Below, in pieces: positions 11,570 through 61,767 of a stretch of 64,000 nucleotides of DNA. The translations under genes were made by a program, and so were the position numbers. Within the stretch, counting starts at the first letter, position 1, and every line of letters begins with the position of its first letter. This stretch comes from Diaporthe sp. PMI_573 (taxonomy: Eukaryota > Ascomycota > Sordariomycetes > Diaporthales > Diaporthaceae), in NCBI GenBank assembly GCA_021399435.1, contig JAJTUP010000004.1, forward strand, positions 1,426,001 through 1,490,000, in the 5' to 3' direction. Under the pieces are notes generated by a model. It saw nothing but the letters and a program-made list of their open reading frames with translations. It did no database searches and was not told the origin of the DNA.

Positions 11570-12634
11570 ATGTACGTCATCGGAGTCTTCGTCGACAATG
11601 AAGGGCAAGAAGGTGCTCAGGTTACGTTTCTCACAGAGAAGAGTAACGAGCGCATCGCTATATCCCTTTTCAAATCCAATACGACAGCTCAGATGAACAT
11701 AAGCCCTGAGAACGCCCGCACAATTGACCGCACAATCGAGCTCCTCGCCCGATCCATGGATGCAGAGGACGAAGATAAGGCAGATGCTCTGCAGGACGAG
11801 GCTTTAGATGTTATCTACGCGGTAGCTAGCTCCCTCGACCAAGATGATGGAGCATCAGAAGAGTCAAGTCAACCACAAAATTTGCACAATCTGCTATTTC
11901 CGAAAACATCCTTCTACCGGCTTGAGGAGGTGGCTGGCGAGCTTACTGTCGTCCCCATCTCACCAGACGAAGCATACGGACCAACATACAACGAGGACCA
12001 AGAACAGAGCATACCTGAATTTGGTGATGAAATATACATCGACTCTTCGCTCCCATCCTACCTACCTGAGCAGGTTAAGGTAGTTGAGCAGCTTGTTTGT
12101 GGTGGAGGTACGGTCTGCCTAGCCCAGGTTAATGGCTACCAAATGCTCTGCAAAGCTCGGCACAATGGTCTTAAAGACTATAATATCAAGCGAGAGATCG
12201 ACTGTTTGCAGAAAATCTCGAAGGCATTCCTAGGCAGGGTTTCTGTACCAAAGCTGCTAGGCTACGTGAAACACCCAAGATCCAGCGCCATACTTGGGTT
12301 CTTGCGGGAGTGGGTACCTTCTAAAGACAACCTAAAGGACCTCAAGGAGGCGGGATTTCCAGATTTTCCAAAGGAGATACGGCAAAAGGTAGGATGCCAG
12401 ATAAAGGAGGCTGTCAAAGTCCTCCACGAAATTGGAGTTATTTGGGGTGATGCAAAGCCGAGTAATGTGGTTATCGACCTAAACAACGATGCGTGGCTGA
12501 TCGACTTTGGAGGTGGTTGGTCAGAAGGCTGGGTGGATGAGAACTTGCAGAACACTGTGAAAGGGGACCAGCAAGCAGTTACGAGAATTCTGGAGTTCCT
12601 GGACCTCAATACATCCGACGTGTCGAGTACATAG
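11570..12634 (+). CDS. Small protein-kinase-like protein
   Basis: This is one exon of 354 residues. The open frame extends to 11393, but the ATG at 11570 (GCAATGTACG) starts the conserved-looking part. Residues 1-190 are acidic with no recognised domain. The C-terminal half is a minimal kinase fold: a nucleotide-loop-like CGGGTVCLAQV, the lysine in LCKA, the catalytic loop IWGDAKPSNVVI (Asp and Asn kept, HRD His replaced by Trp) and metal-binding IDFGGGWSEGWVD. Such short kinase-like proteins, related to RIO/APH forms, are numerous in ascomycetes. The substrate is unknown. It stands alone beside the decayed interval on its left. Confidence 0.65.
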   Translation: MYVIGVFVDNEGQEGAQVTFLTEKSNERIAISLFKSNTTAQMNISPENARTIDRTIELLARSMDAEDEDKADALQDEALDVIYAVASSLDQDDGASEESSQPQNLHNLLFPKTSFYRLEEVAGELTVVPISPDEAYGPTYNEDQEQSIPEFGDEIYIDSSLPSYLPEQVKVVEQLVCGGGTVCLAQVNGYQMLCKARHNGLKDYNIKREIDCLQKISKAFLGRVSVPKLLGYVKHPRSSAILGFLREWVPSKDNLKDLKEAGFPDFPKEIRQKVGCQIKEAVKVLHEIGVIWGDAKPSNVVIDLNNDAWLIDFGGGWSEGWVDENLQNTVKGDQQAVTRILEFLDLNTSDVSST

Positions 12635-13741: not shown

Positions 13742-14698
13742 TCACTTCCAGAAGTTCTCCATGAATGCTGAAGCGGCTTCCGGTCCCACATTCCCTGTCA
13801 TAATTCGAGTGTCTTTCCCGAATCTGTTGTTAGCTACCTCGTTCACCCTTGAGATTGTTTGCCAGTTCCCAACCCCCACATCGCCTGTCATGATTCTGGC
13901 TTGGTCCAACGTGATATTGCCGTAAATTCTACTCTTGTGCTCCGGCACATTTTGCCGCCTTTGATCTGAGTCGGATGCGTCACTGGGCTGTGGCTGGTCA
14001 CTCAGGCCCAAGTTTGTTACCTCCCCTTGCAGAAGCGCGATGGTTCCGTCTCGATGTCTTGTTAGCTAGAGTGAACAGGATTCCACAGTCGTGAACGGCT
14101 TACCCGCGTCCGGCACGCGACCCCGGGTCATTTCCGCCAGGATCAAGTTGGTCCCCAAACAATTGTTGACCTTTTCATTGACGTCCGCCAGTGTGAGTGC
14201 CGCCACACGGAAGCCGTCGCTCAGACTTCCAATCAGGCCGACCTGGGCGACCACAATGCGTAACATCAATTCAGACCTGACACTGTCCAAGCGTCTGGCA
14301 ACACTGTTAATCTGCTTTTCGTCCTCGTTCCCTGTCGCTAACGCATGCATCATTTGGCGTCCCGAGCTCTTCTCTTGCCTCTTTCGAGAATTCTCAAGCA
14401 CGTCTCTAACTTCTTCAGCAACACCAATGATGGCGGTGACCTGCACCATAACAGAAGCGGTCTGGAGATTCGGTTCAGATTTCACCAATGTCAAAGATTG
14501 AACAAGGCCTTCCAGCTGCGTAGAAGTATCTGAGAGAGTCTTTGGCAATTCCTTGACCTGTCGGCGAGCAGTTTGTATTGTCCTGACTGAAGAAATGGCC
14601 GTCTCCAGGAGACTCACAACTGCTGAAGCAGTTCCTAGCTCCGCAGCCTTCTCAATGATTGTCAGTTTTCATACTGTTTCCGCTGAAGCATGTTGCAT
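13742..14698 (-). CDS. Putative amyloid-signalling effector with HET-s-type prion domain
   Basis: On the minus strand, a helical domain (frame from about 14668 to 14104) is spliced (donor GTAAGC at 14103, acceptor GAG ending at 14050, phase 1) to a 102-codon last exon. The first part is an alpha-helical domain of about 185 residues resembling SesA-like or other N-terminal domains of fungal STAND proteins (LETAISSVRTIQTARRQV, then paired amphipathic helices). The last exon has a polar linker and two repeats ending in RIMTGDVG and RIMTGNVG, about 31 residues apart. They finish with the aromatic tail FMENFW, as in the HET-s prion-forming domain. By that analogy it would be a cell-death effector triggered by the divergent receptor at 15155. 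The 5' end is unresolved: the in-frame ATG at 14698 is followed ten codons later by TGA (14671-14669). Confidence 0.65.
13772..13831 (-). repeat. HET-s-type amyloid repeat R2
   Basis: It encodes NNRFGKDTRIMTGNVGPEAA and is followed by an aromatic C-terminus (FMENFWK). In HET-s the second repeat is also followed by a Phe/Trp-containing tail. GKDTRIMTGNV lines up residue by residue with GDNTRIHQGNV of the receptor at 15155. Confidence 0.72.
13868..13924 (-). repeat. HET-s-type amyloid repeat R1
   Basis: It encodes YGNITLDQARIMTGDVGVG. The core R-I-M-T-G-D-V-G matches R2 at seven of eight positions, with Asp for Asn. The pattern of an alternating polar/hydrophobic strand, a Gly-Asn/Asp turn and another strand is that of the beta-solenoid rungs of the HET-s prion domain. 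Confidence 0.7.
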
Positions 14699-15154
14699 GG
14701 CCTCTCAGGACTTTTCAAATGCTTCAATATGGATATTTACCATCTCAACCTACTATCAATTCGCGTGGTCAGTTGACCGGTGACCGAAATGAGAAACAGT
14801 GCTAAGCCTGCCACTCGCACCACGCTTTACCGGGCTCATGAATATATGATACTGGGGTAGGACAAGAAGCGGGGATAGGCAAGTCCCAGATCTCCCATTC
14901 GTCACCAATTTGAGCCGGATTTGGGTTAAACTTGTTCCGTATGCAATGTTGGTCAGCTGGTGGCGGTGGGCGCTTATGTCTCGAATGCAGGCACCACTAT
15001 TGCCTTTCTCCCAGACCGTTGGGGCTCCGTCCTTGAGTTATCGATCTCACGGTAAAGCACAAGTGCTTTGTATAGCCGGGTTTGGCTTTTAGAAACTGGT
15101 TCCAAGATAGCCAATCATCTTTCTGAGTTGCTAGGTAACTAACTTTCTGAAGTG
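14699..15154. promoter_or_regulatory. Shared divergent promoter of effector and receptor
   Basis: About 455 bp separate the start regions of the minus-strand effector and the plus-strand NLR. Frames inside it are short and unconvincing. The head-to-head arrangement suggests co-regulation. No specific binding site is recognised. Confidence 0.45.
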
Positions 15155-18100
15155 ATGTCGCAACCTCAGAAAACATCCGGAGAGCAGAAAGACACTCAGA
15201 CATGGCAATCCCCCAGTATCACTGGGGGTACATATGGCGACAATACTCGGATCCATCAAGGCAACGTGAATTTCAACATTGGCGGGATTGAAGGTTAGCC
15301 ATCGAGCACTTTATACTCTCTTGTTCCCTGTACCGACCTCATTAACACTGTTCATCTTGGAAACAGCCGACCTTGTACACTCATACTTTTACCCTCAATA
15401 TGGCGATATTAGAAGAGGGAGAAACTCGACAGCACAGAACGAGGCTGAATCAAGGGGTAGTCGCCCAATTGAACATTGACTTGAATAGACTGTCCCCTGC
15501 TAACAACTCGAAAGAGCAAAACTGGCTTAAAGACGTCTCCAATATGTTTGCGAGGGAGGCCCGACGTGCTGAAGTGGCATTTACTCAGTGCAGCAGCAAA
15601 TTCCATGAGGAAGACGATGTTTTGGATGGCTTCGCCAACAACAGCGTTATGCAAGGCTGGTTCTCGTCTCACGGATCCGTACTTTGCTGCTGGTTGGAAG
15701 CCGGCAGGCGCGTGGACCATGCCCATATGGCCAAGTGCATTCTATGCAAAGTCTTGAACTCCGACACCCATGGCAGACACAACATCTTCCTGTACGACCA
15801 TGAAGAAGGCACCGCGGTTGAACTCCCCAATTTCTATCTCTGCGCCAAGGCTGAGGCTTTGAAGACGACCAAGGGCGAGGGGTTGGTTGCTCTTGAGAGG
15901 CGTGACACTAAAGAAATTGTCCTCCTCTCTTTTGCAATGCAAGTCAAGGCGAGGGGATTCGATATTCCTCTCCAGGCGATCGATTTCAGTGGACCAACTC
16001 AGCTTATTGACTCGTTGATATTCCTGATCGTCGAGGCTCTGCATCCAGTGCCTGAACATGTGTTTCTCGTCCTAGAATGGCCCAGCAGTACAACAGTGAC
16101 GGCTGTATCCGAGACACTTGACGTCATCAACGGGCTGCTGTCCATATCGAGGAACAGAAATCTCTCGCATAATTGCTCGGTAATCATGTCCGTTCGAGAG
16201 ACACCAGGTTTGTTGAGGCTCCTAAAGGACTATCCTTCCGTCCGACCAAACTCAGAATACAAAGGTATGCCATTTCAACTGGATTTTGCTCTGGGTCAAC
16301 AATGTGCTACCTTTATGTTTACTAATGTTCTTTGTGTGAAGATTGTTTGGAGACTCTTAAGTTGAGAGGGGGAAGCCTCCGCCGAGACGAAATCGCACAA
16401 CCTGTATTGTCATCCAACCTTTGGATTTGGGATAACGCCAGCCTGAAAAGGCTAATGGATTCCGATTCTGGAGCGCTGGCAATCATTGGTAAAGCCGGTT
16501 GCGGGAAGTCTGTTCTGGCCAAGACAATTCAGGAAGGTGTTCCTCACCACTGGAATCGACTGAGTCAATCTTCAAATAATCACGATCTCTTGTTGAGCGA
16601 CTGGTTCTACTGCCGGAGAATGGGTGATGCCTTCATGGCTTACTCGTCACTTCTTCGAAACGTGCTGTATCAATTGCTGGATCAAAGGCCGTCACTTTTC
16701 CACCACTACAAATTGCTTCACCGGCGCAATCTATCAAGCAGCTCACAAGAATGGACGACCGAAGACCTTCAACAGATCATGAAAAACATAAATATGTCAG
16801 GCCTGAGCATATTGATGATCTTTGATGCAATCGACGAAGCTGAAGATGACAGGATGGTGTCGTTCATTGAGACTCTGGTCTCCAGACCTGGGTCCTCAAT
16901 CAAGGCAATATTACTAAGTCGCCCGTTGGATGTCTTCGAGAGACGTTTCTGGGAAGGCCGCAGAGTTACTTTGCAGGACGAGAACAACCAAGACATAAAT
17001 CTAGTGGTTCAACATGGCTTGTTGAAACTCAGGTCAATCATGAATGGCCGGCACCAGGACACAGAGAGCGAGATATCAGCCAACCGGGGTTACACTACCG
17101 AGGGCCCGATCAAGTTCAAGACGCATGCGGCACTGAGACAGACGCCATTTCCCAGCCCTCGGCCAGCTGCAGCTCCATTTGCAAGCCGCCAACTAGAAAA
17201 TTCCCAGGGTCTTGATGTCCTGGGCAAGAATATTCGAGAGAGGGCAGAAGGGGTCATTTTATGGGTGGTGCTTGTGTTCGACTCAATCTACAAGTTCGTG
17301 AAGAGGGAACCACTGACCACGATCGAGGACCTCATGTCGTGTGTCGCAGAACTACCCCCGGATATTGACGCCTTGTACAGTCAAATGGTCAAAGACCTGG
17401 CCGACACGATGTCCGATCACGCGCTAGGCAACGCTCGCCAGGCGCTGATGTGGATCGACACGGTCAGTCAACTTAGGGCGTTCACCTTGGGAGAGTTGTG
17501 GGACGCCATGGCTGCTTCGTCCCTGGAGTTGAATGACTCGGGCAGTGGGCCATCCATACGAGGTTTTATCGACAGGCGGATTGAGATCCAGTCGTGGAAG
17601 GACTTCAATCGTATCCTTCGACGGCTCTGCGGCTCTTTGATTGAAATTCTCCCACCCAAGCCGGCTATATCGACGGGAGGCTCGGGCAGTTACACAGATG
17701 TGGGCTCGCGGGTCATTTCGGGTGAATGTGTTGTCCAACTCATGCATCAGACGGTCAAGGACTTCCTGACCTCCTCCCCTGCAGCGGGTGCCTTTTCGTT
17801 CACCGAAACCTTCGCACAGAACGAAGCTCTTCGCGGGTGCCAGAATTTTATCAGATCCACGCTCCCCGACGATATAGATTCGATCATCTCACTCCCGAGA
17901 GACCGGCCGCAAGATTGGGTTTTCTTCTCTGCTGACATGGCACGGTATCTCGAAGAGCTTCGCCTGTTCCCGCTGTGCTTACAGTTGTTCAATGCCTTCC
18001 CCGAGTCCATGAGAGTTTTGCAGACACAACTGGACATGAAATGGTACGGGCTGCTACCTCGGTGGCTCCACGATGTTCGCCCCTTTGACCTTGTCCAAGG

Positions 18101-18620
18101 ACGGAAATATGACCCTGCAGAGCTCACGTTGACGGCATCCGCATTGGGTCTCATGTTCCAATTCATCTCGCGCCGCGGCCTGAGGGATGCAGCGCGGAAT
18201 CTTCTAAGCATTCTCGACATGGGTAGCACCGCCGAGTTCTGGCCAAGGTACCGCGACGTGATCCTCAACGCTCTCGTATTCACCGTGTTCGACCTCGAAG
18301 GTAGCCGCGCCAGCCGCGCACTACGAGTCAAACTGCTGACTCCAATGGGTGACAACTATTCTATCCGGCGAGAAAGTGCGAATCTGGCGCTGGCTAGCCG
18401 CTACCACGAAACCACCACTTGTGACGACCTCATTAACGACCAGGAGAGCGCCCCGAGAGTGCCCGACGAAGACGCTGTCAAGACCATCGAATTGATCCTG
18501 AACTACAAAGGTGGAACGCCGTGGGGCTTCATTGAACGGTACTGGCAACTGTGCTCTTCTCCCGAAGGACAGAATTTCAAAGTTTACGACAGTGTGCATC
18601 AACACATCTCTTTTAATTAA
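15155..18620 (+). CDS. NLR-type STAND receptor with N-terminal HET-s motif and NACHT domain
   Basis: The ATG at 15155 opens an exon ending at 15293 that encodes a HET-s-like motif (residues about 21-44). The next exon runs to 16264 and joins in phase to 16342-18620 (donor GTATGC, acceptor GTGAAG). The joint between exons 1 and 2 is uncertain: the best acceptor (AAACAG, 15366) gives the wrong frame, while TTAG at 15412 restores it. The last exon has an intact NACHT: Walker A GKAGCGKS (16488-16511), Walker B LMIFDAIDEAED (about 16811-16846), sensor ILLSRPL and a winged-helix region. No WD, ankyrin or TPR repeats follow, so the usual ligand-sensing repeats are missing or highly diverged. The 15413-16264 segment may be a second, degenerate NTPase-like domain. 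Inferred role: nucleating receptor for the adjacent effector. Confidence 0.72.
15215..15286 (+). repeat. Receptor-side HET-s amyloid motif (r0)
   Basis: It encodes ITGGTYGDNTRIHQGNVNF plus a short Gly-rich end. It aligns without gaps to effector repeat R2 over G-x-x-T-R-I-x-x-G-N-V. In Podospora the N-terminal motif of NWD2 templates the prion fold of HET-S, and the position here is equivalent. Confidence 0.72.
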
Positions 18621-22013: not shown

Positions 22014-25000
22014 TCACATGGGCTTCGACCAGTCCAAGATTCTCTTCGGCAACCAGGCGAGCGGGCTCAACCACCTTGCTTTCCCGAGAGCCTCTTCCAT
22101 GCAAGCTTGAACAAGTCCTATGATCTCATCCATGTTCTGTGGACCAAAGTGTCTGACAAAGTCAACTAGATCTGCCCTACCTCTGCCAGAAGCACCGAAG
22201 GAGTGCAGGAAAGACCCATGATTCTGCGGCAAAGCGAATGAACATTCTCGAACATCGGTTCCAGTCCCCGATCTCATCTGGAGTTCCCCAACACCACTGT
22301 GGTGCGGCTGCCGCCGGAAATAAACCAAGGGGTCCGCCCCGTTCGCCAGAAAAGCTATAAACGTCCGCCAGAAGCCAGAAGTTTCACGGGTAATGAGTTC
22401 ATCGGAAAAAACCTCCCCTATGAATACCATCCACGGGGAGCACGTGCCCATCTCGTTGCCGATCGGGGAATTTCCATTGGGATCCAGAAAGTTATCAAGC
22501 ATAAGGGTGATCGACGCATATCTCCTCGAGTCCCTGCACCGCATGGCGGCATAGAATACTTCACTCCCGACCTGGTCCTCGAATATCCAGGAGGGATACG
22601 TCTGCCGGGCCCACTGCACATATGTGCTCAACTGCCAGAGGCGAGCGAATGTGTACACAGATAAGTAACCCCTTGAATCTCCTGAGATCGCCAGTCTCCG
22701 AAAGTTCGCATCAAACATGCTCTTCGGGTTGGCGAGCGGCTTTCCTGACTGCCGAATAGCGAGAGCCTCATCTAGGTGCTTCAGGTGTGCGAAAAAGGGC
22801 TGGATATCGAGAGGCGAGGACGATAGAGTATCCATGACATGTCCGAGAACAGTTGATCGCCGCCCTAGTGAGTACCACAGCCAATCAAGGCATTTTGTCT
22901 CCGCCGTGAGGCACTGTATGATAAAACTGGTCCTGGCGCTGGCGTCGTCCAAAGTCGCCTTTATGCTCTCTGGCGGCCCGGTTTTGAGAAAATCGTAGAC
23001 TGACCTGTGGATGAAAAGCAACTCGTTGCGTCCACCTGCGCGTTCTAACAATCCCTTGCAGAGACCTGGCAGACGCCTATTGAATCTGGCGAGGCGTTTT
23101 ACGATTTTCTGAGCGTGTCCGCCGGCTGATGTGCCTTCACTATCTGATGTTGCCAGAAATCCCCAAGGGATAGTGAATGAAAAGTCCGGGTTCTCGATGA
23201 AGTCTTCCAAGAAGGAGTAGTGGAACGCATGCAGAGGGAAGCGCCACCCGTCCGTCTGGATCGCCACTGCAAAAATCATCGCCGCCTCCTGTTTGTTGGA
23301 CTTCCTAATGGAATTGACAATGATGGCGAAGAACTGGTCCAGCTCCTCGGGGACCTTGTGGAGGAGCGAGAAGAGCTCGTCGACCGTGGCACCCTCATCC
23401 AGTTCATCCCAGAGCACGTTCTTAATCAGCAGGTGGACCCAGAGAAAGACGCCCTCGGCCCTCGAGACGACAGTCTCGGCAAACCGCTCCCGGTCGGCCG
23501 GCTCGTATTCTCGAAATTGCCGGTGCTTCATGAGGCGCTCGTCAACCATCGCCCTGATATCAGGACGAGTCAGCAAGTGCAATCGGAGCCTCTGCTTCGC
23601 GGTGAAGGTGTTTATGAAGGCCGGCTCCTCTCGGCTGGATACGCAAAACTTGACCCCCACGGGATTGTGTGAGACCCATCGCCGTAGGTACTCTGCAACT
23701 TCCGTATGCTTCAATGCCTGGTCCTCAAACTCGTCAAGGCCGTCAAGAAAGAAGCAGAAGCGATAGGACTCCGCAATGACCGTGTTGGTCATTAAAAGTT
23801 GTACGGCGTCGTTGATATCATCGGGGTTGATTTTGAAGCCGTCAAACAGCATCCAGGGAGAAAAGTCATGCGGTTTCCAGTACTTTGGGAACAGCGTCTG
23901 GATGAGGTCAGGTGCTTGCTGCAGAACCTGCCTGAGAAGGGTCCGTAGCATGCCCTGCAGGTTCTTCTGGGAAGGGACACCTGCCCTCCATGCAAAGAAG
24001 TTGGCCTTGACCAACATCTTGTCCGCAGCCCATATTTTGAGTAGAGATTGCGTGGAACTGTCGCCTCCTAGCATTTTCATCAGCGTAGACTTGCCGCCAC
24101 CGGGCTTCGCGGAGATGTGAAATATGCCGTGGCCGGCCCGAAGCCACTGCTTGAGTGAGATTTTAAGATTGCCGTGACCTTTTGGTATATCCTCGTTCTC
24201 CACACACCAATCAAAAGTTTTGCGGGCCGCCTGTGATATCTGCTCATGCCTTACCTCGATCTCGTCAAACTCCAGCCCCCTGAGGACCTTGTTTCGGTTG
24301 ATTTCCTCGAGAATGGTGGTGGGCAAGGCGAAGATCTGCGCTATCTGCCCGATCTGAGCGAGCCCAAGCTCCTGGTTCCGCGACAGGCCCTCCACAAGGC
24401 CGTGCAGCCGAGCAATGTCGCCGGCCTGCGCCGCGTGCATGATCAGCAGCTGCTCAAAGTCCTTGCCTATCTGGGACCTATTGCCCGGCTCGGCAACGAA
24501 CATCAGTAAAGTCTGTTAGATGTGAAAACTACTTGTTAACCATCCTAAGCTACTCACCGTACTACAACCAGCAGATGTGTGTTAAGTTGTGTCCTGCAAC
24601 TGTGAAGCTGTTCGTTCAGTTCCTTGACCGTACTCTTGTACCAAACTTCCTTCGCGGCAGCCTTGAGTGATGACCGGAATGAGCCCTCGTTGGTCGCTTG
24701 CATCTTGCCTAAGAATTTCAAAATCTTCTCCCCCAAGAGCCGACACTGCTCGGCCGTGGCCAACATGCTCTCCTCGCCTGGGGTCAGCGTGGGTCTCCCG
24801 GCCTGGGATGCCTTGAACTCGGACATCTGGTCTAGGAGCTCCTGCCCGTTCTTGGTGACCTCCGAAAGTCTCTTGTTGTCCTCAGAGGCGCCATCTTCGG
24901 ACTTGTTTATATCAACCGCAGTCTTGACGATTGAGACCGCGAACTGGGCAAAACTGAGCACGGCCGAGGTGGTCCCGATGATAGTCCAAGGATCAATCAT
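22014..25000 (-). CDS. NACHT-domain STAND protein
   Basis: Exon 1 starts at the ATG at 25000 (MIDPWTIIGTTSAVLSF) and runs to about 24558. Exon 2 runs to the stop at 22014, giving close to 980 residues. The intron end points are uncertain: the strong donor GTGAGT (24557) does not keep frame with acceptor CTAACAG, whereas a GTACGG donor at 24562 does. The N-terminal 145 residues are an all-helical domain of the kind found before fungal NACHT modules. NACHT motifs: Walker A KPGGGKST (about 24084-24101), Walker B FCFFLDGLDEFED, sensor VSSREEP, then a winged-helix region (AEGVFLWVHLLI). The C-terminal 450 residues show no WD, ankyrin or TPR repeats. No amyloid motif is visible, so signalling would differ from the receptor at 15155. 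Confidence 0.82.
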
Positions 25001-58450: not shown

Positions 58451-61400
58451 CTAACTATTTAATACGTCCTTGATAGTCTGGTCTATGAACTCCTTGCTCT
58501 TCCCAAATAGGCTGTCAGTGAATAAACTTACATCCACAAAGTGGTAGCCATCTCTGAGGCCCCCTCCCTGGCCCTTCTGAGCAATCCGCTGCAGCAACGC
58601 TATCATACGGCTACGTCTTTTAAGAAGATGTGCGCTGTCCGCGAGGTTGAGTCTCGCATATGTTAGGAGGAAAGCAGCAATACCCACCATGATGGGAGTC
58701 GCATACGACGTGCCTGACTTGACCATCGAGTACATGTCGTGCTCCGACTCCTCTACGGCGTGATCGCCGCTGCCGCAGAGATGTACAGGCCAAGCCGAAT
58801 CAACAGCTTCACCAACAGTTGCTAGGTTAACGTCATGAGGTGAGGCCGTCGGGCTAAATGGTGAGCGGTTTCCGTGGGCATCAGTCGAGTGCACGCACAT
58901 AACGTTAGCCTCGCGCGCCGGATACGCGCGGCCCAGCTGCCCGCCGCTGTTGGACGCCGCAGCGAAAAGCAGCACATCACGGCAGTAGGCGTGCTTAATG
59001 GCAAGCTCTAGCTTGTCGTAGCCGTCGATCTCCCGAGTCGGGAAACCGAATGACATAGTGATCATATCGACACCCCAAACGTCCACAGCGTGGGTGATCG
59101 CCTGGAATCAATGGTTAGTTCAGCCAGGAAGGCAAAGAAAAGAAATATTAGCAGAGCAATAGTTCGAGTGACATACCTTGGCAATAACAACAGGACTGGC
59201 TGGCTTCTTGTCCGCGATTTTGGCAATGTAGATCTCGGCATCCGACGCGAAGTCAAGTAGCAGGCAGGTCACAAAGGTGCCGTGGCCCCCAACGTCATGG
59301 ACGATGCTTTTTGCCTTTTCGTTAAGCCAGTTGTATTTGTCCTTGATATTCTCGTTTCGAGCCTGTACATCGGGATGGTTGAGGTCAATCCCAGTATCCA
59401 GTACAGCAATCTTCACTTGCTGCGTCGCTGACAACTTGGGGGAGAAGCTCATGTAGCGAGTGATGAATTGTTCATATACGGCTTGGTATTTGACTTTCCA
59501 ACGGGAGTAGTTTGCGCGCCTGTAGAGATGGGTTAGCCCGATCACATCACAGACCTAGACGTCCGTATGTAGCTTACGCTTCAGAAGAGTGGCCGCCTCG
59601 TGGTGCTTCGTCATCAAAGAACCTCGCTGTTTTATAGTCGGCTTCACCGGCTGCGTTTGGCGCAGACATTGGACGGACCTCCGCCATCGCTGAGATGTTG
59701 GTGCTGTAATTATCCACACTAAGACCTTCGTGAGCCAGTGACAATGTGGGTGGCGGAAAGCCGTGCGAGAACAATCGCAATACATACCCAGCCGCAGGAC
59801 TTGCCACTGTATTCAACGGACTAGACCTTTGTCCTTCGGTATCGAAATATTCCGAAAAATCCTGGTTCTGCGCCTGCTGGTTTCTAATTGCTTGATCCCA
59901 GTTGCTGAAGTCTAATTCCCGTGCGAATCGATCCAGATCTTCAATGGATATGGAACTGTAACCTAGTCTCAGGTCGTTCTCCAGTGGCATTACAACCTCC
60001 TCGTAGATTTTACTTCTCAGGGCGTGGCTGTCAAGTCTGTTGCTTTCCTCGTCCTCCCAGGTCGCTCGATCCAGACACTTTTCGACAGCGTAGACAAATA
60101 GATCTGGCATGTCATTTCGACAGTGCTCGAATATTTCGCTCGCGGCGATGTATGTTGTGAGAGATGACGCATCTTTTGCGACCTCAACGTTCTTTTGCCT
60201 TGCGATCTCGTCAAATGGTGTCACAAAGTAGACTTCCATCAGCATGATCGCAAGGGTGACGATAGTGGGACACGGATGTTGCATTTGGTTGTCAGGATCG
60301 AAATCATCCGAGTCAAATTCGTCCTCAACGTCAAAGCCACGGGCCTGAGCATCATCGGGCTTCAACCCTGGCGATTCGGTCCTGAGGAGGCGCGTTTGCA
60401 GGAACGGTCTAAGTGGTATCTCGGAATCCTTCGTGCGGAAGAACAGGATGTCAGATGAGCTCCACGTCGGCTGTAGCCACGGTGTGTCTTGCAGGTGTAG
60501 GACGGCGTAGCTAAGCAACACCGCGAGGATGCGCCGCGTCTTGTCAGTAAATGCCCGTGGGCCACACTGAAGGAATTCGTGCAGCGAGACAGGGCTCTTG
60601 GTCAGGTCCACCAGACGATTGCTGCGCTTCGATGGGAGCCACAGTAGCCGGTCCCGTGTGACCTTGAGCTCTACCGTCATCATCCTTTTGGCTTTGATGA
60701 CGGGCACGCACAGGCGCTGAACTCGCGCGACCTGTGCCCGAGGTGGTCTTGGTGCCGCTCGTCCGTCCATGGCGAATTGGATTGTCTTCTCTTTGGCCGT
60801 GTGGACACACACCTCCTGCCACTCCCGGGAGGCGGAGAGGAACATGTCAAAATCGACCTCATTGTCCTCGTCGGCTCCAGACCGGCGGTAGGTACCGAGG
60901 CCTAATCTGGCCCCAAAGTCGTGCGCAGGTGTGCATCCGCAGTTTTGGCACGCCGTCATGGCTCTAAACACAGCCTGGGCGGAATTCCAAACCAAGAAGG
61001 ATGGTTCGCTGATCTTCTTCGGCGAAGCAAAGTCTTCTGCTGCCCAAAGGGACCGCTGTTCAGGATATCGACTTTGCAGGTCCCTTTCCCAGGCGGAGAG
61101 GAAATCGATGAAGGCCACGCGCTGAGAGTGCGAATCACCAAAGACTAAGACGGTATTGATAAACTGGGCCTTGAACATGCGGTCCCTGGCTTCAATCTCC
61201 CCCCAACGAGTATACATGTCCCGTAACCTGTCCTCAACCGATCCTTTCGAGATGAGGAATGATCCAAGCCACGATTTGATGGAGTCGGCTAAATCGCAGG
61301 CGAGGCTCACCCTGGCCCCGGTAATACGGTCCAGGTGGTTGCTGATCAGAACGCAGTACGCCATTAAGTCGGCATAGAAAACCCGGAGCTCGCCATTGTC

Positions 61401-61493
61401 TGCATCGATTCTGAGTACCCTGGCGATGTCCAAAATTGTCCTTGAAGCCGCTTGAATCAGAGCTGTGTCTGTGTCGTCGTTGGATGGCGGCAT
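58451..61493 (-). CDS. Subtilisin-like (S8) serine protease with large N-terminal regulatory domain
   Basis: Three exons (61493-59578, 59519-59177, 59101-58451; donors GTAAGC and GTATGT, acceptors CTACAG and TTCCAG) give 969 residues. There is no signal peptide, so it is cytosolic. Residues 1-600 match the helical fungal domain often seen as DUF7580 (ILAVLLSYAVLHLQDTPWLQ, then WSSSDILFF). The S8 domain has the full triad: Asp680 in VLDTGID, His718 in GGHGTF and Ser885 in SGTSYATP, with oxyanion Asn804 in AAASNSGG. The numbers assume the ATG at 61493; the frame is open slightly further upstream. Intracellular subtilases with NLR-like or DUF N-termini commonly sit beside fungal gasdermin-like genes and act as their activating proteases. 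That role here is inferred from the neighbour at 57326. Confidence 0.85.
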
Positions 61494-61767
61494 CGCGTAG
61501 CCCACGGACCTCGAGGGGTCCTCTTTTCGGAGATGTCTGGGGAGTGAGATCACGTATAATCGTGGTTGTTTCCTCGTGGCAGCCTGACTGACTGGTCAGC
61601 CGCTCTCGCCACATCTGTACATGCTGTGGCACCGGGAATCACCGGGAATCACCGCGACCCCGCAGAAGTTCTTGAACATGCATGTCCTGCATGTCAGCCC
61701 CTCACCTTCTCACCTTCATCTGTACGCTCCAGACGCTGTGTTCTGTCCGTGACGCAATGCTGGGACC
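61494..61767. promoter_or_regulatory. Divergent promoter between protease and C2H2 gene
   Basis: About 274 bp separate the two start codons. A short direct repeat, GAATCACCGG/GAATCACCGC, lies at about 61636-61655. No known motif is recognised. Confidence 0.4.

Follow-up and report, generated by a model that had tools for sequence, protein, structure and literature searches.

Here we describe a divergent gene pair in a 64,000-nucleotide stretch of Diaporthe sp. PMI_573 (contig JAJTUP010000004.1, positions 1,426,001 to 1,490,000; hereafter the window), taken from a genome of 83.7 Mb in 217 contigs. We read the two genes, with a probability of about 0.85, as a two-component cell-death signalosome of the HET-s-related amyloid motif (HRAM) type. 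The pair consists of a minus-strand effector (284 residues, two introns) and a plus-strand NOD-like receptor (NLR; 1085 residues, three introns), whose start codons point away from each other. Two copies of a motif, r1 and r2, lie 30 residues apart at the C-terminus of the effector, and a third copy, r0, lies within the first 38 residues of the receptor. Both gene models are intact; they are inferred from conservation and splice signals. Among the relatives of the effector is a Diaporthe batatas protein (81% identity), and among those of the receptor are proteins of D. eres and D. batatas (69% identity). Because the layout is that of the published HRAM NLR/effector arrangement, of which many pairs are known, we count this pair among an already published kind. 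The less expected part is the receptor, in which an unusual extra domain stands between r0 and the NACHT-type NTPase, and this architecture deserves a structural look.

A preliminary description of this DNA, made from its letters and reading frames, had pointed out the repeats RIMTGDVG and RIMTGNVG followed by an aromatic tail, and all three are present in the minus-strand frame ending at 13742. A pattern search of 53 homologs detected r1 in 32, of which 28 also have r2, amounting to 19 distinct copies of r1 and 17 of r2. Since the search patterns themselves demand part of the core, conservation was counted on an alignment of 49 homologs, among the members with a letter at the position concerned. 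G19 is present in r0, r1 and r2 of the window and in the family (r1, 32/32; r2, 29/31), and so is R15 (r1, 31/32; r2, 26/31), a position at which HRAMs prefer R or K. The HRAM hydrophobic positions 5 and 16 are hydrophobic in all three copies, position 16 being I throughout, and position 10 is Y, T and F in r0, r1 and r2, respectively. The loop between r1 and r2 measures 9 residues, inside the HRAM range of 6–18. The two repeats carry opposite charges at positions 4 (R/E) and 12 (D/K), which are among the sites of inter-repeat charge complementarity (PMC4518210). Two charged residues are found in r0, versus five in r1 and six in r2, and fewer charges in NLR motifs are a published trend (PMC4518210). 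In the tail, F278 and F282 are conserved in 31/31 members and W283 in 29/30.

The effector structure was approached with an AlphaFold2 model of the ortholog P0001, built from 49 sequences (mean predicted local distance difference test score (pLDDT) 64.6; predicted template modelling score 0.41). The model places strands at 220–225/234–237 and 250–255/264–267, so that the first set is repeated at an offset of exactly 30 residues, and the tail forms a helix. At a pLDDT of 54–62, this strand pattern agrees with two stacked rungs.

The receptor copy, r0 (ITGGTYGDNTRIHQGNVNF at 15218), contains the motif GDNTRIHQGNV noted in the preliminary description, which lies in the plus-strand frame opening with the ATG at 15155. 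Its gapless alignment to r2, also claimed there, holds by eye, with 7 of 11 residues identical. To score r0, profiles were built from the 17 distinct r2 and 19 distinct r1 copies of the homologs and run over 68,360 six-frame positions of the window. Only r2 and r1 themselves score higher than r0 in the window with the r2 profile. With the r1 profile, these two and also an unrelated stretch at 1680 (score 3.4) outrank r0, which comes fourth. Shuffles of the first 45 receptor residues reach the score of r0 in 98 of 20,000 cases for the r2 profile and in 23 of 20,000 for the r1 profile. The profile score of r0 alone is not decisive. Meanwhile, the receptors of D. eres and D. batatas plainly carry the same motif at the same place (SSITGGTYGDYTRIHQGHVNLNIS and SSINGGSYGDHTRIHQGPVNFNIS, respectively). 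We regard the match of r0 as firm because the motif recurs, both in these two species and, within the same genome, on an NLR that is unrelated.

This unrelated NLR belongs to a second pair, on contig C192 (L009 1853–5696), which emerged among the eight pieces matching the effector in the genome, two of which are the window gene. The effector of the C192 pair is intact, with clear r1 and r2, and is arranged divergently to an NLR that has NPHP3_N/NACHT and ankyrin repeats and otherwise differs from the window receptor. Apart from self matches, the best hit of both profiles in this locus (11,545 positions) is ISHCIFGDQAQIHQGDVIH, in a frame upstream of the NLR. This stretch and the window r0 agree at 8 of 19 residues, a figure that none of 100,000 shuffles of the surrounding 37 residues reaches, although the stretch had been picked for its match. 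One motif class is thus used by two different receptors of a single genome.

On contig C143 (L010) lies a decayed copy of the C192 pair, with a GC content of 0.417 versus 0.554. In alignments of the two longer than 300 bp, G>A and C>T account for 2,244 of 2,683 mismatches (overlapping repeat alignments being counted more than once), a pattern typical of repeat-induced point mutation. A 64-residue r1–r2 query found the window, C192 and C143, and a 30-residue r0 query found the window only; since the latter missed the r0 of C192, single-sequence searches miss divergent copies. Contig C150 (L011 4780–5418, minus strand) has a relative of the effector's helical domain with 28% identity. For this weaker paralog and another on contig C145, the 9.9-kb stretches examined were without a clear motif, the profile scores reaching -0.1 at most. 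By eye, the C192 pair lies between inverted copies of an element resembling a long interspersed nuclear element.

Linkage in other genomes was assessed by a proxy, in which an equal size of the longest contigs in an effector and a receptor homolog cluster is taken as the same contig. Nine of 13 close effector homologs (P0001–P0012, P0042) share a contig size with a receptor homolog, including contigs of 5,198 and 7,539 bp, on which the two genes would therefore be nearly adjacent. One of the misses, P0002, sits on a contig of 1,065 bp, too short for this purpose.

By analogy with NWD2/HET-S and FNT1/HELLF, the NLR would sense a ligand and oligomerise through its NACHT domain. The receptor would then pass an amyloid shape to the effector by templating, and the conversion of the effector may release a SesA-like helical bundle that attacks the cell's own membrane.

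Several observations weigh against the amyloid signalosome. The Pfam profile of HET-s 218–289 (PF11558), a miss of which the preliminary description had named as refuting, matches neither the effector nor the receptor segment at E≤1. Genome-wide, it has no match at E≤0.001, and the same search is also empty in all 14 control genomes. Because this profile matches only 38 of 155 published double-repeat proteins and misses 117 (PMC4518210), its miss here is expected. Motif positions 8 (G/N/N in r0/r1/r2) and 18 (Q/T/T) are usually hydrophobic, and the family keeps N and T there; the hydrophobic HRAM pattern at 5, 8, 10, 16 and 18 holds "in general", with polar exceptions described at 10, 16 and 18, not at 8 (PMC4518210). 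Position 17 is M in r1 and r2 and H in r0. As for the β-solenoid that was to be modelled, the repeat-matched strands came out in P0001, at a confidence of only about 54–62 pLDDT for the repeat region. A search of the PDB gave the effector family profile no convincing match. With the r2 profile, an unrelated stretch in L010 scores 6.0, above the 1.4 of r0, and the scores of r0 in D. eres and D. batatas are as low as -4.9 and -6.5, respectively. The effector homologs P0005, P0010 and P0012 sit on contigs that could hold an NLR and share no size with one. In D. batatas, both genes are on equal-sized contigs with locus tags 404 apart, and are therefore probably not adjacent.

These points bear differently on the alternatives. 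The low confidence of the solenoid model, together with the polar residues or G that each copy has at two usual core positions, would suit a homotypic receptor–effector contact, either non-amyloid or with transient β-structure, by which the effector is recruited and not templated. On the other hand, the double-effector/single-receptor layout, the arch glycine G19, R15, the loop length and the charge pattern are those of HRAM families, and HELLF repeats as little as 17% identical to those of HET-s adopt the same fold, according to an excerpt of PMC7889193. We therefore consider mere recruitment quite improbable. That the genes are unrelated neighbours with a coincidental match could be argued from the 98 and 23 of 20,000 shuffles that reach the score of r0, and from the unrelated stretches scoring 3.4 (window, r1 profile) and 6.0 (L010, r2 profile). 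Such a coincidence is very hard to believe, given that two other species have the motif in the corresponding position and that it returns next to another effector, on an NLR unrelated to this one.

A further question is what the locus serves. It may act in allorecognition (vegetative incompatibility) or as a prion system like het-s of Podospora, and not in immunity by xenorecognition. The tandem ankyrin repeats of the C192 receptor, 78–86% alike in large arrays, fit such a role. Alike tandem ankyrin repeats recall fast-evolving fungal NLRs. Moreover, het-s incompatibility has been proposed to be an exaptation of such a pair (PMC5485727, in part). The effector and receptor genes of the window look intact, however, and keep the receptor-controlled layout, and only [Het-s] and sigma are named as natural prions among such systems in the excerpt of PMC7889193. 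Allorecognition thus seems unlikely to us. The amyloid signalosome remains our preferred reading; it suggests that cell death in Diaporthe can be amyloid-gated, through a motif overlooked by the standard Pfam model. With two intact pairs whose unrelated receptors carry one class of motif, the genome offers a natural test of whether their effectors are shared or insulated.

The coordinates of the pair are collected in Table 1. The effector begins further out than was visible to the preliminary description, with a start codon that alone forms the first coding exon. Splicing of intron 1 yields MAAELGTASA, the D. batatas counterpart being MAAEIGTASA. The same layout also fits the C192 effector paralog, with an ATG, a 51-nt intron and a conserved AEAIG start. 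We considered the in-frame TGA before the open frame as a pseudogene mark and rejected this, because the TGA falls in the intron directly after the start codon. For intron 2, the acceptors CTCTAG and AACAAG were rejected, as each shifts the frame. The resulting length of 284 residues equals that of the homologs P0001 and P0002. As a 284-residue frame in a cluster whose longest contig measures 1,065 bp, P0002 appears to represent a spliced transcript, in whose mature frame the motifs are kept.

Table 1. Features of the effector/receptor pair (positions in the window).
Feature	Position	Strand	Basis or remark
C-terminal aromatic tail	13745..13786	-	conserved F278, F282, W283
Repeat r2, 21 residues (250-270)	13787..13849	-	profile, P0001 model, alignment
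Repeat r1, 21 residues (220-240)	13877..13939	-	profile, P0001 model, alignment
Effector exon 3 (linker, repeats, tail, stop codon)	13742..14049	-	gene model
Effector intron 2, 54 nt	14050..14103	-	GAG acceptor; junction gives PDADGT as in ortholog P0001
Effector exon 2	14104..14647	-	gene model
Effector intron 1, 93 nt	14648..14740	-	inferred from conservation; contains TGA preceding the open frame
Effector start codon (coding exon 1, ATG alone)	14741..14743	-	GTAAAT donor, ACTGAC branch-like site, AAG acceptor
Effector N-terminal domain, probably SesA-like, helical (residues 1 to about 175)	14126..14743	-	Pfam, homologs, P0001 model; spans intron 1
Divergent region, 411 bp, between the start codons	14744..15154		follows from both start codons
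NLR receptor gene, 1085 residues	15155..18620	+	exons 15155-15293, 15367-15456, 15515-16264, 16342-18620
Receptor motif r0, 21 residues (18-38)	15206..15268	+	profile and conservation
Receptor N-domain, about 240 residues, without Walker A	15544..16263	+	low-confidence AAA+/STAND-like model
NACHT-type NTPase (NPHP3_N, E 1e-21)	16419..16922	+	Pfam
P-loop GKAGCGKS	16488-16511	+	NACHT Walker A
Walker B LMIFDAIDE	16812-16838	+	NACHT

The first domain of the effector had been described as not looking like HeLo. The window effector itself scores 20.5 bits with SesA (PF17107), below the cut-off of 26.3; EXOC6_Sec15_N ranks above SesA with 21.3 bits, also below its cut-off, and a weak match to MLKL_N is likewise below cut-off. 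The family with the most matches among effector relatives is SesA, which 28 of 49 hit with an E-value of 0.01 or less and a best value of 7.4e-7, followed by DUF948 (15), DUF6377 (11) and PF17111 (6). SesA is a recognised remote relative of HeLo (PMC4518210; PMC5485727, in part), and PF17111 is termed HeLo-like in an excerpt of PMC9815663. From these profile matches, the N-terminus of the effector is probably SesA-like, and thus a relative of HeLo and not an unrelated module, which revises the preliminary description. The P0001 model shows helices across residues 2–175, and the structural matches of this bundle are generic bundles, for example apolipoprotein E. HeLo and MLKL do not appear in the structural match lists of the effector, an absence that does not exclude them. 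Among solved structures, candidate relatives of the effector were rejected as unconvincing (best E 0.1).

In the receptor, the exon with r0 given in the preliminary description stands, and turns out to be the first of four. Introns 1 and 3 agree with the D. batatas protein P0056. Intron 2 is the least certain, and the near-identical P0071 reads through the same stretch in frame. The NTPase belongs to NPHP3_N (78.3 bits, cut-off 24.8), with the NACHT profile itself reaching 22.8 bits against a cut-off of 26.7. WD, ANK and TPR repeats were not detected, with no repeat family at E≤1 in the 764-residue frame of the window, nor were repeat families detected in the D. eres and D. batatas orthologs. 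Of the NWD2/HET-S architecture proposed earlier, the pair layout holds, and the templating mechanism proposed with it is the most likely one, whereas beyond r0 and NACHT the receptor is not NWD2-like, having no detected WD repeats and an extra domain.

No Pfam family matches this extra N-domain itself, which lies between r0 and NACHT. Its Walker A is missing in 16 of 16 sequences; an invariant E ends a Walker B-like strand, and a conserved CCWL...DH.H.AK.IL occupies the place equivalent to the P-loop. The model of the domain, of low confidence and with a pLDDT below 50 in the P-loop-equivalent stretch, resembles AAA+/STAND ATPases. Foldseek returned nothing at E≤0.001, its first rows being mostly triosephosphate isomerases, and the AAA+ reading rests on a second structure aligner, for which the typical best Z without a clear match is 7 to 8. 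A duplicate of the NACHT domain was also considered; profile comparison gave this no support (1.5% probability, in the wrong register; five controls, 0.3–0.4%). We tentatively speculate, with somewhat less than even confidence, that this amyloid NLR has two ATPase domains in tandem, the first of them, AAA+/STAND-like and dead, being placed between the r0 trigger and the live NACHT. As a lock or a ligand platform, this first domain might keep the r0 motifs separate until assembly of the NACHT ring, replacing the undetected repeat sensor. This domain between trigger and motor could reveal how an NLR keeps its amyloid seed silent. In the excerpts returned by a literature search for tandem or degenerate NACHT domains, for which other wordings are possible, none was found, with NLRP3 and one sea anemone as partial matches.

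Other genes of the window include a second NLR at 22014–24515 (minus strand; upstream frames to about 25200) with NPHP3_N and DUF7791. Inspected by eye, its upstream frames have a HeLo/SesA-like helical start, which would make it a possible all-in-one receptor that brings its own death domain along; the profile scan lists nothing like r0 there. A protein-kinase-like gene lies beyond the stop end of the effector, at 11570–12634 (plus strand; Pkinase, E 6.4e-9), and a DUF7580 protein is encoded at 59574–61595 (minus strand; E 2.8e-35).

In a Diaporthe-related literature search, Diaporthe appeared, among the matches listed, only in the title of a 1923 reference (PMC10197012, in part). The pair can be set beside known systems. 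Like NWD2/HET-S of Podospora anserina (HRAM1), it joins an adjacent NLR with one N-terminal motif to an effector in which a helical domain, in the window a putative death domain, is followed by two motifs. It differs in that the motif falls outside PF11558, the effector domain is probably SesA-like and not HeLo, and the receptor has an extra domain ahead of NACHT and no detected WD repeats. FNT1/HELLF of P. anserina (HRAM5) shares a domain that in the window effector is probably HeLo-related, a divergent double motif and a similar size (277 residues in the source excerpt, 284 in the window), but HRAM5 is described with Q at position 16, where all three window copies have I. The mark of HRAM4 (example Pestalotiopsis fici), Q at position 18, is also found in the r0 of the window and of C192, a comparison made by the described mark alone; r1 and r2 of the window have T there, and we assign the pair to no subfamily. 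The SESA/sigma cluster of Nectria haematococca likewise combines a SesA-type N-terminal domain, as is probable for the window effector, with a C-terminal amyloid motif and a linked NLR. In contrast to the sigma motif of about 40 residues with threefold submotifs (PMC5485727, in part), however, the window effector carries a 21-residue double repeat.

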